IMG/VR virus record: IMGVR_UViG_3300036985_001063
Span: 1-29,986 of that record
Reading direction: 5' to 3' (one strand)
Source: a virus
Length of the DNA stretch: 29,986 bases
Made by a program: the position numbers and the translations under genes. The notes beneath the pieces were generated by a model. It saw nothing but the letters and a program-made list of their open reading frames with translations. It ran no database searches and was not told the origin of the DNA. This document shows, piece by piece, positions 2,967 to 22,065 of the stretch. Position 1 is the first letter of the stretch; the number at the start of each line of letters is the position of its first letter.

Positions 2967-4598
2967 ATGCCTTTAGTTAAGGTAAAAGGAACTGGACAGA
3001 TAGGTCTTAATCGTGACCTATCACAGTCTGAAATGCCGATTAATGCATGGAGTGATGCAAAGAACATTAGGTTTTTAGATGGCTATGCCTTGCAATATTT
3101 AGGGCATGGCGAGGTCTATAACACTCCTTCTTATGCACCACTCCATGTACTGCCTTGTAATGTTCAAGGTAGTCGTTATTGGATTTATTTATCTAACTAC
3201 AAACAATTTTCTGTTACCAATACACCAACAGGCTCACAGCACACAGATATTACCCATGCATCATGGAATGGATTTTATCTTGACCTTATTACCGAGTCTG
3301 GGCTTACACTTACTGCCGAAAGCGGTGAAACATTAATTAACGGTGGCGTTGGTAATCCAATGAACTGGACATCTGCATTGTTGTCAGGTGTTCCCGTTAT
3401 TAATGCAGCAGATAGTAATTTTCCACCAATGGCGTGGAATCTTAGCAATACATCAAAGTTTGTAAACCTTCCTAATTGGCCTGTCAATATGTATTGCAAG
3501 TCAATCAGGGCTTATAAGAACTTCTTGATTGCTTTGAATGTCACCAAAGCAAATGCTACTTATCCTTTTATGGTGAAGTGGTCACAACCAGCAGACCCTG
3601 GTGGATTACCGTCAACATGGGATGAAACAGACCCAACTAACCTATCAGGTGAGTTTGACCTTGCTGAGGGTTATGATATTGTTATTGATGGCATGCAGTT
3701 GCGTGACTCGTTTATTGTGTATAAAGAAAACAGCACATGGCGACTAGATTATATTGGTGGTAATTTTATATTCAAATCATCAAAGGTCTTCAATAAATCA
3801 GGAATCATGAACCGCAATTGTGTTACTGATATTGATGGGTTTCATGTTGTATTAACCAATAATGATGTAATTATTCACGATGGAAGCACTGCACAATCTA
3901 TACTTGATAAGGCAACAAGGCGCTGGTTATTTCAAAATATTGATGTTGATAATGTCATCAAGTGTTTTGTATTTACCAACCCATTTTTTAATGAAGTATA
4001 TATATGCTTTCCGTCAATCGGTGCAACTTCATGCGATACAGCACTTGTATATAACTACAAGGACAAGACTGTATCAACTCGCCAGATGCCTAATATTAAT
4101 CATGCTGGGTATGGCCCAGTCGATAATGGATTAGCTGGTAACTGGGCGCAAGATTCTCAACCATGGGCTTCTGATTTAACCCTGTGGAATGGGCCAGACT
4201 TTGTTCCTAGTAATGCAAGGGTTATTGCAGGTAGTGCTGATGTTAAGCTTTATATGCTTGATGCTTCTGCATCGTTTGATGGTGTATTACCACAGGCATA
4301 CCTAGAACGCAGAGGATTGTCTTTTGAGATGCCAGAAAGCATTAAGTTGATAAAAGGTATTAGACCAAGAATAACAGGCAACATAGGCGACACAGTGCTT
4401 ATACAAGTAGGTTCTCAAGATGATCCGTGGGGCAATCCAACTTATTCTGATCCTATGACACATACAATAGGTAGTACAATTGCTAATGATTGTTTGGTAT
4501 CTGGTCGATACATTTCCATTAAATTCTTAACTGGTACTGCATACCAATGGCGTTTAGATTCTTTTGATATTGAAGTAGATCAAACAGGGGGTTGGTGA
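2967..4598 (+). CDS. Tail nozzle / DNA-stabilisation protein (P22 gp10-SU10 type)
   Basis: 543 aa. The opening (MPLVKVKGTGQIGLNRDLSQ, then PINAWSDAKNIRFLDGYALQ) and the body (RYWIYLSNYKQF; LIALNVTKANATYPFMVKWS; LRDSFIVYKENSTWRLDYIGG; NEVYICFPSIG) follow the beta-propeller-like tail tube proteins of short-tailed phages, called nozzle in SU10-like phages and gp10 packaged-DNA stabilisation factor in P22. It would attach below the adaptor ring, extend the tail and keep packaged DNA from leaking. Length is close to that of these relatives. It lies in the tail gene block, and its TGA overlaps the next ATG (TGATG). The exact family member is inferred, the tail role is well supported. Confidence 0.7.
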   Translation: MPLVKVKGTGQIGLNRDLSQSEMPINAWSDAKNIRFLDGYALQYLGHGEVYNTPSYAPLHVLPCNVQGSRYWIYLSNYKQFSVTNTPTGSQHTDITHASWNGFYLDLITESGLTLTAESGETLINGGVGNPMNWTSALLSGVPVINAADSNFPPMAWNLSNTSKFVNLPNWPVNMYCKSIRAYKNFLIALNVTKANATYPFMVKWSQPADPGGLPSTWDETDPTNLSGEFDLAEGYDIVIDGMQLRDSFIVYKENSTWRLDYIGGNFIFKSSKVFNKSGIMNRNCVTDIDGFHVVLTNNDVIIHDGSTAQSILDKATRRWLFQNIDVDNVIKCFVFTNPFFNEVYICFPSIGATSCDTALVYNYKDKTVSTRQMPNINHAGYGPVDNGLAGNWAQDSQPWASDLTLWNGPDFVPSNARVIAGSADVKLYMLDASASFDGVLPQAYLERRGLSFEMPESIKLIKGIRPRITGNIGDTVLIQVGSQDDPWGNPTYSDPMTHTIGSTIANDCLVSGRYISIKFLTGTAYQWRLDSFDIEVDQTGGW

Positions 4599-16747: not shown

Positions 16748-17170
16748 TTATTTTACAACATGTAAAGATTTTTTATCATTCCACAAATTAAATGCTTTAT
16801 AAGCTCCAACATAACCAAGAGCAACACAGACAAAAGCGCCCTGTTTCTGTGCCTCCAAGAGGTATTCTTGTTGTCCATCTTGCCATTTTGACTTGGTGTG
16901 GTCTTGCCGTTTTAATTCACAGACGAACGCAGGGCTTGCCGGAATAATAATATCTGGCGCACCTTTTGTCATTCCCTCGCTCTTTTGCCTGGTGGCCTGG
17001 TAGAATGTACGCAGACCCTCATTCCTAATGTGCGTAGCAATCAAACCATAGGTTGCAGGGTGTTCCCTGCGTAGTTTTGCAAAAAATGTTACTGCTTCAG
17101 CAGATTCTGAAGGACATTCCCCTCTAAAGTCTGTATCACCAAACACTTGTATATCACTGTGGAACTTCAT
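16748..17170 (-). CDS. VRR-NUC domain endonuclease
   Basis: 140 aa from ATG at 17170, preceded by AGGA at 6 nt; the frame is open further up to 17251 but that part overlaps the helicase. The PD-(D/E)xK core is visible: IRNEG (about residues 50-54), KGAPDIII with Asp73, and FVCELKRQ with Glu85 and Lys87, then DGQQEYLLEA (Gln100/101) on the next helix. VRR-NUC enzymes cut structured DNA such as junctions or flaps. The gene overlaps the SF2 helicase end by 17 nt, a helicase-nuclease pairing common in phage replication/recombination modules. Confidence 0.82.
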   Translation of the reverse strand: MKFHSDIQVFGDTDFRGECPSESAEAVTFFAKLRREHPATYGLIATHIRNEGLRTFYQATRQKSEGMTKGAPDIIIPASPAFVCELKRQDHTKSKWQDGQQEYLLEAQKQGAFVCVALGYVGAYKAFNLWNDKKSLHVVK

Positions 17171-18932
17171 CGGCTGTCCTGTTGTAGTCGTATATCCTAA
17201 AGAAATCACCTTTTTTTCTGTAAGTGATAGTGCTTGGTGTTGTAAAGCCATTGTCGGTAAACTTCATAAACGCATCATAACTGCTCTGCATTTTCATGGT
17301 AAACCAAACAGGGAATGATCTATACTCAGTTATAAAATCAACTCGTAGGCACTCGTTTCCTGCCTTGCTCAATGTTGGTATTGCTCGCATTGAAACAACC
17401 TTGTCTGTTTGAATCTGCGTTGGATCTTTCTTTTTCATTTGGAAGTCAGCTATTAACTTGCTGTTTGGGTCTATCAATTCCCCTTTGCACTCACAACAAT
17501 ACCGAGCTGCAATATCATTTTCAGCTTCACAATGCACACACGGTTTAAACGTCCATCTATAACTGCACCTAACCAGTTTCTTTATAGTTTTGTTAAATAC
17601 TTCTCCGTAACATCTCCTGCCATGATGCGCTGACATTTCACCAAACTCTGTTTCTAATCTTATCCCCTCCAAGTCTATAAAATAGCCATTAACATCAATA
17701 TTATTATTTGCCTCATTGATTACTGGTGCAAATTCATTATGTGCCTTGCACTCTGGACATTGTGCTTTTATAGCTTCACCAGCAACATAATCTATTGATG
17801 CTTCTATCTCTGGATTAAAAATATCCCCATCAGGGCAATGGCGGTCTATGTTTTCTGCGTAATCTAGTATCAGACAATCATCTTTATTGTCGTCAATCCG
17901 CAAGCCTCTGCCTATTATTTGTTGCAACAGGCTAACGGACTCTGTAGCTCTTAAAATAGCTATCAAATCAACGTGTACACAGTCAAAACCTGTAGTTAAG
18001 ACTGACACGTTGACTAAATATTTTAATTGCCTAGCTTTGAATTTTTGCAGTATTTGTTCTCGTTCCTTCTTTGGTGTTTTACCTGTAACTATACAAGATA
18101 ATCCTGAAGGCAATGATTCTAAAACCTCGTGTGCATGTTGCACTGTAGCGGCAAAAATCATAATACCTTGACGATCTACTGCCTGTGACACAATATCGCC
18201 TACAATCGCACTGGTGAGCCTTCCTTGACCATGATAAGCCTTATCTACATCAGCTTTGGCAAAGTTACCCATGCTATTAAGTTGCATGTCCAACGTATCA
18301 TAATGACCAGAATTAATTGCGCCAATAATAGGTTGGGTTAAGTATCCTTGCTGGATTAGATCACGAGCGTAAACGGTAAACACTCTGGCGTTAAAATAAG
18401 GTTTCTTGGCTTTATTTTCCCCATGTGCATTGCCATGCTCATCCATCCTATATATATAACCATCCCCAAGACGATATGGAGTAGCTGAAAGACCTATTAC
18501 ACGCAGATTAGGATTATGCTGAACCAACGATTCAATGATACTTTTGACGGTTGGTGTGATACGATGTGCTTCATCCAGTACAACCGCACAAAATTTAGCT
18601 CCAAAACGATGAATCTTATTTTTAACGCTAACAGGCGTGCCAAAAACTACTGGATGTTTTAAACACGTTTCCCCAACGCTGGCACTAAACAAGCTACATT
18701 CATTGCCAGTATCACGGTACTTTTCTGCGTTCTGCTCCAGTAACTCTTTTGATGGTACAAGACACAATATGTGTTTGCCACCACTAACCTTATGCAATGT
18801 ATTAGCTATTGCTGCCACAATTAAAGACTTGCCACTCCCTGTTGGCAATTCTAAAACACATGGGCTGGTACATTTCTTTATCCAATCTATAGCTGCATCA
18901 TGCGCTTGGGATTGGTATGGGCGCAGTTTCAT
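17154..18932 (-). CDS. SF2 DEAD/DEAH-family helicase with C-terminal zinc motifs
   Basis: 592 aa. Motif I PTGSGKS (residues 30-36), motif II DEAH (120-123), motif III SATPYR (149-154), motif V-like TTGFDCVHVDL (313-323) and motif VI QQIIGRGLRI (337-346) give a full SF2 helicase of the RAD25/SSL2 type. After residue 390 two Cys pairs each look like zinc ribbons: CPEC at 392-395, and CVHC (465-468) with CCEC (479-482). It would unwind or remodel DNA using ATP. Starts within the stop of the gene upstream on the minus strand? No: its ATG at 18932 overlaps the TGA of the DUF3440 gene (ATGA), and its end overlaps the nuclease. Confidence 0.9.
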   Translation of the reverse strand: MKLRPYQSQAHDAAIDWIKKCTSPCVLELPTGSGKSLIVAAIANTLHKVSGGKHILCLVPSKELLEQNAEKYRDTGNECSLFSASVGETCLKHPVVFGTPVSVKNKIHRFGAKFCAVVLDEAHRITPTVKSIIESLVQHNPNLRVIGLSATPYRLGDGYIYRMDEHGNAHGENKAKKPYFNARVFTVYARDLIQQGYLTQPIIGAINSGHYDTLDMQLNSMGNFAKADVDKAYHGQGRLTSAIVGDIVSQAVDRQGIMIFAATVQHAHEVLESLPSGLSCIVTGKTPKKEREQILQKFKARQLKYLVNVSVLTTGFDCVHVDLIAILRATESVSLLQQIIGRGLRIDDNKDDCLILDYAENIDRHCPDGDIFNPEIEASIDYVAGEAIKAQCPECKAHNEFAPVINEANNNIDVNGYFIDLEGIRLETEFGEMSAHHGRRCYGEVFNKTIKKLVRCSYRWTFKPCVHCEAENDIAARYCCECKGELIDPNSKLIADFQMKKKDPTQIQTDKVVSMRAIPTLSKAGNECLRVDFITEYRSFPVWFTMKMQSSYDAFMKFTDNGFTTPSTITYRKKGDFFRIYDYNRTADEVPQ

Positions 18933-20128
18933 GCTTCAATGCCAGCTGTTTTTTGTTTTTTTAACTGCAAGTATTTTCCATATGCTTCACTTTTTGGCTG
19001 AGTTAAACCAAGTCCTTTGCACCAATGATCATTTCTTAATAAAACTTTACATAATCTTCTATATGATGGTGCCCATTGTTTATCTTCAAGAGTTTTTGGA
19101 GCAAAATCAGGTATTTCATTATATCCTCTTGATTTCCAGCCTTTAATAAAAACTCTAAATCGCTTTATATAATGATCTCTATTTTTTTTAGGCAAAGACT
19201 TTAATAATAAATTACAAAAACTTTTCCAAGTATGATTTTCAGGCTTAGAAATCTTGTTGCTTCCAGTTATATTTCCAGATTCTTGAACATATAAAGCTCC
19301 TGAATTAGCTCCATTTACTCTAGCTATTAACTTAAACCAAGTTTCAGGTTCAAGAATGTGGTACAGCCATAATCCTTTTTTTTGATCATCTCCATAAGGC
19401 TGACAAAGTCTTTGCTGACTTATTGGAACACCAGCTTTATGCATAAAATCATATATTTTATTATTAGGTAAATCTTTAAACTTAGAATGAAACCTCCATA
19501 TATCTTCTGTTTTCCAATCATAAATTGGATAAATATTAAACAAATTATCGCCAATATAAGTTGTATATCTATTGTTTCCATGCATTTTTTTATCAAATAC
19601 AGCAACAGTTCTATATCTATTTAAACTTTCATCTGCTCTTATTCCAATTAAACCAGCGCATGTTTTACCTTGTGCATACCATAATCCAAATAAAACAGTT
19701 AATTCTTCAAATTCCATATTTGGCTGATAAAATGGATAATCTTCACATTTAGCAGCAAGTTTTGGCTTTTTCCTTACCCATATATCTTTTTTTTCTTCAT
19801 CCCATGCTGTCCATCTTGGCTCAAAAACAGTTACTGCATTTCTTAACAATAATGGAAAACACAACCAATGAAGATCAATATTATCTTTATACATATCAAT
19901 CATTTCTTCTATATGCTCAATAGTAGATTTATACTGAGCTTCAAGATCAATAATTAATATTCCTACTTTTTTATTTCTTTTTTTTGCTTCCATCATTGTT
20001 AAATGGAACATAACGCTGCTATCTTTTCCTCCTGAAAAAGACAAATAAACTTTTTCAAAATTATCAAAAGAATAATTTATTCTTTGTTGAGCTGCTTCAA
20101 AAACATTAATTCCTAGTAATCTTTTCAT
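18929..20128 (-). CDS. DUF3440 PAPS-reductase-like protein (IbrA-like)
   Basis: 399 aa. The PP-loop SFSGGKDSSVMFHL (residues 30-43) marks an ATP-pyrophosphatase/PAPS reductase fold. Downstream GIRADESLNRYRTV and IYPIYDWKTEDIWRF are the usual second and third motifs, QRLCQPYGDDQKKGLWLYHI is typical of the DUF3440 group, and the end (APSYRRLCKVLLRND) also fits that family. IbrA of E. coli, paired with ParB-like IbrB, is a relative and affects gene expression; the chemistry is unknown. Enzymes of this fold adenylate a substrate, often for sulfur transfer. DNA is much more A/T-rich than the helicase next door. Start overlaps the stop of the next gene (TAATG). Confidence 0.85.
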   Translation of the reverse strand: MKRLLGINVFEAAQQRINYSFDNFEKVYLSFSGGKDSSVMFHLTMMEAKKRNKKVGILIIDLEAQYKSTIEHIEEMIDMYKDNIDLHWLCFPLLLRNAVTVFEPRWTAWDEEKKDIWVRKKPKLAAKCEDYPFYQPNMEFEELTVLFGLWYAQGKTCAGLIGIRADESLNRYRTVAVFDKKMHGNNRYTTYIGDNLFNIYPIYDWKTEDIWRFHSKFKDLPNNKIYDFMHKAGVPISQQRLCQPYGDDQKKGLWLYHILEPETWFKLIARVNGANSGALYVQESGNITGSNKISKPENHTWKSFCNLLLKSLPKKNRDHYIKRFRVFIKGWKSRGYNEIPDFAPKTLEDKQWAPSYRRLCKVLLRNDHWCKGLGLTQPKSEAYGKYLQLKKQKTAGIEA

Positions 20129-20553
20129 TAGTATAAATTTGCTTCTGTTTTAGATTGCGCTTGGTCAAGAGATAATTCATCTTCACCACGTTTTTTTAAC
20201 CATTTATTTAAAAATTTTAATGCACATATATTTGCTAACTTTTGTTGTTCCTCTGATAACAAATAAAATCCTCCGCAAAATTTTGATGGTATTCCAGTTG
20301 CATAACACGCTGATGCTTGACCAAGCCATGCAATTCTATTCATTTTTTCATTTGATAAATAATGTTCACATGAGTTTTTCCATTCCAATAATATTGATTG
20401 CATTGCTGCTTCAAACATTGGAATATCACTTAAAAATTCAGCATATTTTTTTTTGCAATCATCATCTGATAATGATTTGTCTTTAGATTTGTTTTCATAA
20501 AACCCAGCTGGATAGCACTCCCACTTATCCCAAGTATAATAAATTCTATTCAT
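20128..20553 (-). CDS. Unknown protein between ParB-like and DUF3440 genes
   Basis: 141 aa. It opens MNRIYYTWDKWECYPAGFYE and has a conserved-looking core MNRIAWLGQASACYATGIPS followed by KFCGGFYLLSEEQQKLAN (about residues 71-108), then a basic helix. Cysteines occur at several places but no clear metal motif. I recognise no family with certainty. It lies between the two halves of an IbrB/IbrA-like pair, overlapping the ParB-like gene by 8 nt and the DUF3440 gene by TAATG. So it is probably a third subunit or partner of that system (inference). Confidence 0.68.
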   Translation of the reverse strand: MNRIYYTWDKWECYPAGFYENKSKDKSLSDDDCKKKYAEFLSDIPMFEAAMQSILLEWKNSCEHYLSNEKMNRIAWLGQASACYATGIPSKFCGGFYLLSEEQQKLANICALKFLNKWLKKRGEDELSLDQAQSKTEANLY

Positions 20554-21208
20554 CTTCTAATCCTTCAAAATCATTATCATCATCAAAAACAACGTCCCAT
20601 GCCTCTGAAAAATCTTCATCTAAAAACATTTCAGCCAATCCGCTTATTTGTTTTAATCTTAAAACTTCATCAGAATCCATGCCAAGATTTTTAGCTATTT
20701 TTTCATCAGACCAATTTCTTTTACTAAGCTCAATAACAATATCAGACATAGATTCAACTTTATGTTTTCCTCTTGCTCTGTTATGCCTAATAGTTGATGC
20801 CATTCTGTCTGTTTTATTTTTTTGATTTTCTCTTATTTGAACAATAGGAAGATATCCAAGTATTTTTTCTTGTATGTCTTTACATTCTTTTCCAACTCTA
20901 TGTCTATGAAAACCATCAATAACTTCATATTTTTCACTTTTATCAGGCATAGAAACTATAGGTTGTGTATATCCATCTTCTGAAATAGACAATCTAAGCA
21001 ACTCCATTTCTGGAGGAGCAACACTATTTGGGTTGTAATCATTTTGATATACACTTTCATTTTTAACCCATTTAACAAAATCAACTGGCTCATTTTTAAA
21101 AGGGCTTATTAAATGTATTTTTTCTCTAACTTCATTTATTGCAATTATTTTTTTTTCTAAATCAAGTTCATCTATATTTTTTATTAATAATTCAATTAAT
21201 TTATTCAC
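20546..21208 (-). CDS. ParB/Srx-fold protein (IbrB-like)
   Basis: 220 aa, GTG start at 21208 placed 5 nt after GGAGG. The frame runs back to TTG at 21220, but that codon precedes the ribosome site. ParB features: NPNSVAPPEMELLRLSISED (about residues 60-80), GYTQPIVSM and the phosphate/nucleotide motif YEVIDGFHRHRVGKE (about 94-108), then RHNRARGKHKVESM and a helix-turn-helix (WSDEKIAKNLGMDSDEVLRL). IbrB of E. coli has this layout. The C-terminus is very acidic (FDDDNDFEGLEDE). The GTG overlaps the exonuclease stop (GTGA). It likely binds nucleotide or DNA and acts together with the DUF3440 protein. Confidence 0.8.
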   Translation of the reverse strand: MNKLIELLIKNIDELDLEKKIIAINEVREKIHLISPFKNEPVDFVKWVKNESVYQNDYNPNSVAPPEMELLRLSISEDGYTQPIVSMPDKSEKYEVIDGFHRHRVGKECKDIQEKILGYLPIVQIRENQKNKTDRMASTIRHNRARGKHKVESMSDIVIELSKRNWSDEKIAKNLGMDSDEVLRLKQISGLAEMFLDEDFSEAWDVVFDDDNDFEGLEDE

Positions 21209-22065
21209 GACAACCTCCAATAACTGCTAGGAGGTGATTGATATTTAGTAAGGTCAGCATCAGGCATTAGTTCTTTTATGGCTTTAGCGTACGATATAGA
21301 ACCATCACGGTGTACTTGTGTTAACTTGTGTCCAGCAATCTCACTATCTTTACCGCCAGCAAGGGTAACAATCTCAGCTAATATATCTTTGCGTGTTGCC
21401 TCCAGCTTCTTAATTTCTTCTGTTGCTGCAAGATATAACTCCAGCATAGCTTCACATTGCAACTGTTGGCGTTTATCTTCAAGATACTTTATACAAGCTG
21501 GTGCTTCACGCTCCACAAGATACTTATCATAAAATGCTCGTAGTTCCGGTAAGTATTTATCAATAGCTAGTGGATTAAACCTAACTGTTTCTAACATCTC
21601 CCCATGCGCAGACCATTGGTAAAAATGACACCATTCCCTGCCAGTTACCAGCAACTGGATTTGTATTTGCATCCAGTAATGCGTTTGGTAGTCTATAGAC
21701 TTAAACTCTGGTGGAAATTTATCACGCTGACCATACGGGCATTTAACTTCCAATAATCCATCATCATTAATCAAGCCGTCTGGTGATGCTCCAAGCCATT
21801 CTTCATAAAGACTAAACCCAGTTGGTATAACTACATTATCAGTTTTTTGCACATAATCCATTATTGCTAATGATTCATGGTATGTGCCATAGTCAGTAGC
21901 CACATTTCCTTTAAATTCAGATGGATAACCATGATATTGACGTACCATGTTGCGCATAACGTCTTCTGGTTTCATAAATGGTGACTTACCTAGTATTGCA
22001 CCAACACTTGAGCCTGTTACACGGTTTTTCCTAGCAGTAAACCATTCTTCTGTACGTTGCTCCAT
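21205..22065 (-). CDS. YqaJ / lambda-type recombination exonuclease
   Basis: 286 aa. Active-site motifs in order: EEWFTARKNRVTGSSVGAIL (about 6-25), Glu64 in GTYHES, GASPDGLI with Asp96, LLEVKCPYG with Glu106 and Lys108, and the Gln motif HYWMQIQIQLL (129-139). This is the lambda exonuclease/YqaJ family, which resects dsDNA to give 3' single strands. With the Sak4-like ATPase and SSB-like protein upstream in the same operon it forms a phage annealing recombination module. The C-terminal 80 residues add a coiled part and a small domain (SEIAGHKLTQVHRDGSISYA). GGAG lies upstream of the ATG. Confidence 0.88.
   Translation of the reverse strand: MEQRTEEWFTARKNRVTGSSVGAILGKSPFMKPEDVMRNMVRQYHGYPSEFKGNVATDYGTYHESLAIMDYVQKTDNVVIPTGFSLYEEWLGASPDGLINDDGLLEVKCPYGQRDKFPPEFKSIDYQTHYWMQIQIQLLVTGREWCHFYQWSAHGEMLETVRFNPLAIDKYLPELRAFYDKYLVEREAPACIKYLEDKRQQLQCEAMLELYLAATEEIKKLEATRKDILAEIVTLAGGKDSEIAGHKLTQVHRDGSISYAKAIKELMPDADLTKYQSPPSSYWRLS

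Follow-up and report, generated by a model that had tools for sequence, protein, structure and literature searches.

A mobile phage cassette of IbrB-like, P141 and IbrA-like genes occupies genomic slots shared with DNA-modification genes

A 29,986-base phage fragment from IMG/VR (record IMGVR_UViG_3300036985_001063; the whole stretch is hereafter the window) carries on its minus strand a cassette of three genes encoding an IbrB-like protein of the ParB/Srx fold, a protein of 141 amino acids named P141, and an IbrA-like PP-loop protein of the DUF3440 family. The three genes recur as a unit, IbrB and P141 are often fused, and the cassette moves between phage backbones and is exchanged with DNA-modification genes. 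The trio is probably a mobile phage DNA-modification, that is anti-restriction, cassette, in which IbrA would perform an ATP-dependent activation and IbrB would provide targeting, on what we infer to be a DNA substrate.

The three genes form one unit

A search of the IMG/VR viral contigs for P141 yielded 77 loci. Genes for IbrB and IbrA flank that of P141 wherever the contig is long enough, and their order is nearly always IbrB-P141-IbrA. A profile scan recovered 461 P141 relatives, and the 80 of them that were read show the same linkage, which is far beyond chance. The original prediction, made from the window alone, regarded the trio as a unit with P141 as partner of the other two proteins, and proposed a search for the linkage elsewhere as a check. 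Both points were upheld, and the check did not refute them: P141 is linked to IbrB and IbrA in these other loci. Contigs that seem to break the rule are truncated or, in one case, probably chimeric. The latter is contig L162, which carries a P141 fragment without IbrB (positions 3980-4163); the match begins abruptly at the end of a contig from a Rhodobacteraceae metagenome-assembled genome, with unrelated bacterial DNA adjacent, and the contig is probably chimeric. P141 is almost absent from bacterial genomes: 85,000 prokaryote genomes gave five matches, every one on metagenome-assembled contigs.

A single open frame of about 370-390 amino acids encodes both IbrB and P141 in many loci. Of 104 distinct IbrA proteins placed on a tree, 52 belong to cassettes with the fused form and 52 to cassettes with the split form, and the character changed state, by fusion or fission, at least 3-4 times. 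In the fused half of the distinct cassettes P141 makes up the C-terminal domain of IbrB. It is thus best described as an IbrB domain that is sometimes separately encoded, and in general it is not an independent third enzyme. Permuted forms were also found, one with the order P141, DUF3440 tail, IbrA and IbrB (L077), and another, in Pseudoalteromonas phage XCL1123, with IbrA, an ectoine-synthase (EctC) homologue, IbrB, P141 and the tail.

Translation in the window proceeds on the minus strand from a YqaJ exonuclease through IbrB, P141 and IbrA to a helicase. The open frame of IbrB extends from 21220, and its likely start is the GTG at 21208-21206, preceded by a GGAGG ribosome-binding site (21214-21218, minus strand, as read from the sequence) within the 3' end of the YqaJ gene. 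The IbrB-like gene (20546-21208, minus strand) is joined to the exonuclease gene by GTGA (21205-21208) and to the P141 gene (20128-20553, minus strand) by an 8-nucleotide overlap (20546-20553); P141 is joined to the IbrA-like gene (18929-20128, minus strand; 399 amino acids) by TAATG, with an overlap of one nucleotide at 20128, and IbrA to the helicase by ATGA (18929-18932). The three reading frames and the 8-nucleotide, GTGA and TAATG overlaps first described for them are exact. G+C content is 29.0% in the cassette versus 39.1% in the remainder of the window. The bordering genes lie outside the cassette, both on the minus strand: upstream, a YqaJ/RecE-like exonuclease of 286 amino acids (21205-22065; Pfam YqaJ, 6.6e-22), and downstream, a DEAD/ResIII-type helicase of 592 amino acids (17154-18932; Pfam ResIII, 1e-23).

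The cassette exchanges with DNA-modification genes

The interval between the YqaJ and helicase genes, hereafter slot 1, was compared among 47 distinct contigs of the phage family to which the window belongs. It is empty in 15, where the two border genes abut, and occupied in 32. The window's cassette or related versions of it are present in seven contigs, and a five-gene version (IbrA2-EctC-IbrB2-P141b-DUF3440 tail) in eight. The remaining cargo comprises Mom (PF25680, 6.5e-43) in two contigs, DNA methyltransferases (phrog_757, phrog_799, PF01555) in seven, either alone, accompanied by a fragment of Mom, or reduced to a remnant next to an HNH gene, QueD (PF01242, 4e-28) together with a tRNA-guanine transglycosylase (TGT) of the DpdA type (phrog_887, 2e-79) in two (L205 and L217), a 356-amino-acid protein without family match in two, and homing endonucleases alone in four. 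Homing endonucleases and the 356-amino-acid protein aside, the non-Ibr cargo consisted of DNA-modification genes or their remnant in 11 of 11 contigs.

Mobility of the cassette was evident from a comparison with contig L168, in which the cassette is 95.5-97.7% identical in nucleotide sequence to that of the window, and the helicase, YqaJ, SSB and Sak4 genes only 72-84%. Contig L163 has flanks closer to the window (84-89% for YqaJ, Sak4 and helicase), yet its slot is empty. A near-identical cassette on divergent backbones, with an empty slot in a closer relative, indicates that the cassette moves between backbones.

Other occupants of slot 1 may be mentioned here. In contig L178 (688-2019) two methyltransferases, one of them for adenine, share the slot with 23 remaining codons of Mom, a direct sign of cargo turnover. 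One of the seven entries with the window's type of cassette (L175/L220) holds a decaying form in which an in-frame deletion fuses IbrB to the C-terminal part of IbrA with loss of P141 and the PP-loop (L175:4508-6004). The protein without family match, of 340-356 amino acids and designated GTx (L176:4934-6004, L216:5858-6882), may be a modification enzyme.

Phages of another, unrelated group have a second slot, flanked by a small HNH gene on one side and the gene for TerL on the other. Of their contigs, 46 have nothing there and 18 a fused Ibr cassette; the alternates are a fusion of helicase and DNA methyltransferase (PF01555, 6e-18) in four, a radical SAM protein in four and another PP-loop protein in five. 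The last two may both be base-modifying (L295:1972-2835 and L255:3346-4317): the PP-loop protein belongs to phrog_424 and has a CVYCPFH motif, and the radical SAM protein belongs to phrog_9298.

Mycobacteriophages constitute the third group. In Phlyer (Pipefishvirus) the genes just to the left of the terminase are those of IbrA and IbrB; in FrenchFry (Rosebushvirus) a complete DpdA-QueC-QueD-QueE-FolE pathway lies there. FrenchFry, of the species Rosebushvirus rosebush, served as stand-in for Rosebush, in whose DNA dPreQ0 has been measured by mass spectrometry at about 28% of G (PMC6884629). Left of the terminase in RawrgerThat (Coopervirus) are a Tet_JBP-like oxygenase, an amino acid:DNA transferase (ADDT) and a P-loop nucleotide kinase. 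These genes (L336:785-3462) are annotated as 'oxidoreductase', 'hypothetical' and 'adenylate kinase', and correspond to Tet_JBP (a weak match), ADDT and P-loop nucleotide kinase 3; they likely form a hypermodification pathway under generic names.

The cassette thus uses slots that in relatives hold DNA-modification genes. Because it swaps with such genes in three phage groups, nucleic-acid modification is the best-supported function. To that extent the original prediction of a trio modifying nucleic acid or a nucleotide gained ground, whereas the sulfur-transfer route attached to it did not, as set out next.

IbrA is a PP-loop enzyme without a conserved cysteine

The IbrA protein of the window matches Pfam DUF3440 (4.8e-35), Pfam PAPS_reduct (1.7e-14; PAPS being 3'-phosphoadenosine 5'-phosphosulfate) and phrog_2302 (1.3e-85). 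It contains the conserved motifs SGGKDS, GIRADESLNR and YPIYDW..EDIW, and the stretches kept among relatives are the PP-loop SGGKDS, G[IV]R..ES..R and P[IL].DW...D[IV][WF]. A sequence search gave no relative with a solved structure. The AlphaFold model (predicted local distance difference test, pLDDT, 82.9) matched the folds of PAPS reductases (CysH), FAD synthase, CysD, TilS, TtuA and NcsA; the SxGKDS PP-loop combined with a HUP fold match places IbrA in the PP-loop ATP pyrophosphatase superfamily. Homologues were found in 216 sequenced phage records, and also in some bacteria including E. coli K-12 (ybdNM).

The match to PAPS_reduct and the CysH-like fold could be taken to mean that IbrA is a PAPS reductase and the gene a cysH auxiliary metabolic gene of sulfate assimilation, as phages have been annotated in print (PMC10434257). 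However, the curated NCBIfam models cysH and PAPS_reductase gave 26-29 bits against cut-offs of 154-254. No cysteine is invariant among 15 diverse DUF3440 relatives, the catalytic cysteine of CysH being among those missing, and IbrA is paired with a ParB protein in every locus examined. Sulfate reduction is unlikely in the absence of a cysteine conserved across relatives, and taking all this evidence together we consider a role in sulfate assimilation very improbable. IbrA was likewise rejected as a DndC, with 18.8 bits for TIGR03183 against a cut-off of 290 and the conserved cysteine set absent. The analogy with sulfur transfer by DndC that had initially been drawn is therefore unsupported, as no cysteine is conserved across the family. 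In the citR/ybdO study (PMC9068703), one differential-expression table contains ybdN, ybdM and several cys genes, which may point to a connection with sulfur and bears on this argument.

The structural matches to TilS, TtuA, NcsA and FAD synthase besides CysH raise another alternative, namely modification of RNA or nucleotides, the substrate being tRNA of the host or the phage, or else a free nucleotide, in the manner of the PP-loop enzymes TilS, ThiI and QueC. Most PP-loop enzymes act on tRNA or small molecules, and the TGT and QueD relatives found in slot 1 come from a pathway common to tRNA. Nevertheless, Mom, DNA methyltransferases, ADDT and Tet_JBP, which share the slots, work on DNA, dPreQ0 is present in the DNA of Rosebush, and IbrB is a ParB-like protein with a stretch resembling a helix-turn-helix (HTH), so that an RNA or nucleotide substrate appears unlikely.

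IbrB, P141 and the five-gene version

IbrB matches ParB_N (4e-6) and phrog_2159 (7.3e-70). Its ParB_N domain contains the nucleotide-pocket motif DGFHR, comparable to the pocket motif of Srx, GmrS and DndB (PMC4619093), and is followed toward the C-terminus by the HTH-like stretch, recognized by inspection. Of the traits of a ParB CTPase partition protein, the ParB_N domain is present, and the genes of the window that were scanned include none named as ParA. That a DUF3440 protein adjoins a ParB-domain protein identifies the two as an IbrA/IbrB pair. ParB-like proteins are likewise paired with PP-loop or TGT enzymes in the DNA-modification systems Dnd (DndB/DndC) and Dpd (DpdB/DpdA) (PMC10853773, PMC12839542).

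Proteins of the ParB/Srx fold can also be NTPases and nucleases (PMC4619093, PMC12839542), and phage cargo includes anti-defence genes as well. IbrB might accordingly act in counter-defence, in the manner of Osa or DndI, through hydrolysis of a nucleotide signal or through nicks made in host DNA, with IbrA as partner. Each slot partner that was identified is either a modification enzyme or a homing endonuclease, no known signal-degrading enzyme is among them, and such a role would leave EctC unexplained; we regard it as quite unlikely.

P141 has the invariant core W-E ... EW-(n)SCEHYLtN-x-x-MNRIAWLGQ (alignment A1), and its AlphaFold model is confident (pLDDT 92) and all-helical. Searches of Pfam, PHROGs, NCBIfam and PADLOC found no family for it, its profile matched no PDB sequence, and Foldseek found no matching fold in the PDB. 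The single Foldseek match among viral models, A0A649V0K8 (E 2.6e-4), is probably the P141 homologue of XCL1123, judged by its length of 116 amino acids. Weak matches to ribonucleotide reductase and other helical proteins had E above 1 and were rejected. On the basis of the model, the P141 fold appears to be new.

The five-gene version is exemplified by L184 (3222-5995), which encodes IbrA2, an ectoine-synthase homologue, IbrB2, P141b and a 75-amino-acid homologue of the DUF3440 C-terminal tail; it was further found in L169, L171-L173, L183, L185, L188, L203 and L222. Its cupin matches ectoine synthase EctC (PDB 5onm) over the whole length (E 1.9e-27). The same plan recurs in XCL1123, and in Mycobacterium phage Gaia EctC is fused to ParB/IbrB.

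Proposed function

The fusions of IbrB to P141 and, in Gaia, of EctC to IbrB count in favour of a DNA-modification cassette, as do the comparable protein pairs of Dnd and Dpd. IbrB would bind DNA, a nucleotide or both and pick the target sites; P141 would complete IbrB and may dock IbrA. IbrA would use ATP to adenylate the target base or the incoming group, leading to attachment of the group, and the EctC-like cupin of the five-gene version would further convert, and perhaps cyclise, the attached group. The proposed reaction would involve no sulfur chemistry. We tentatively suggest, as a possibility rather less likely than not, that IbrA-IbrB, with or without P141 and EctC, represents an unrecognised class of DNA base hypermodification: PP-loop adenylation of a base or an amino-acid-like donor, guided by the ParB-like protein, would attach a sulfur-free side group, the cupin of the five-gene version would close a ring, and the 'co-activator' effect of E. 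coli IbrAB would be a consequence of the DNA mark.

Conversely, IbrA and IbrB could be a pair of co-activators that control transcription of phage or host genes with no DNA modification. The original genetics of ibrAB in E. coli speaks for this, the name co-activator is repeated in annotations, and to our knowledge altered gene expression is the only experimental phenotype of IbrAB there. YbdM, the IbrB homologue in E. coli K-12, is a predicted transcription factor (PMC9068703). Against this, transcription control accounts neither for the active-site motifs of IbrA nor for EctC in the cassette nor for the trading of places with DNA-modification genes, and a DNA mark could itself alter transcription. 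Direct transcription control is in our judgement a distinctly unlikely account.

Besides that phenotype, several points weigh against a DNA-modification cassette. The sharing of slots is an association, and slots 1 and 2 also carry homing endonucleases, GTx and radical SAM proteins; proteins related to QueD and TGT can work on tRNA as well. The mycobacteriophage terminases compared are about 55-60% identical, and what is common there is a position beside the terminase, not an aligned insertion. P141 is missing from most cultured phages and from 4/4 bacterial IbrAB loci examined, so it is dispensable for the core activity.

Pairs of IbrA and IbrB have been described before, as co-activators or as sulfate auxiliary metabolic genes (PMC10434257). 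In the open-access literature no link between IbrA or DUF3440 and DNA modification was found, subscription papers lying outside the search, and an earlier prediction is possible; nor did that literature yield earlier reports of P141, of the forms fused to it, of the EctC-bearing five-gene version or of the exchange in the slots. If true, a function in DNA modification adds a class of phage DNA modification, corrects the 'cysH' annotation that the IbrA family attracts and explains the effect of IbrAB on gene expression, while the helical P141 domain and the link to ectoine synthase point to unusual chemistry.

Comparison with known systems

In Dnd and Ssp phosphorothioation systems, as in the Ibr cassette, a ParB-superfamily protein with a DG.HR-type motif stands beside a PAPS-reductase-like PP-loop enzyme. 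The Ibr cassette differs in having no DndA, DndD or DndE and in that IbrB does not match the DndB family; searches of Pfam and PHROGs turned up nothing like DndD or DndE, either within the cassette or in the neighbouring genes that were identified. The Dpd and phage 7-deazaguanine systems have genome slots in common with the cassette, combine a ParB-like ATPase with a base-modifying enzyme and include another PP-loop protein, QueC, but rely on TGT and on preQ0 synthesis genes, which the cassette does not have. The cupin of the five-gene version resembles EctC over its full length, and differs in being linked or fused to IbrB and in standing without EctA and EctB. Closest are the ibrAB genes of E. 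coli, ybdNM of strain K-12 and their counterparts in many temperate phages, in which the same two families, DUF3440 PP-loop and ParB, are adjacent; IbrA of E. coli phage phiR5_2 is 41% identical to that of the window. Those known pairs have the order IbrA-IbrB without P141 and are called co-activators, whereas the window has the order IbrB-P141-IbrA, as swappable cargo among DNA-modification genes.

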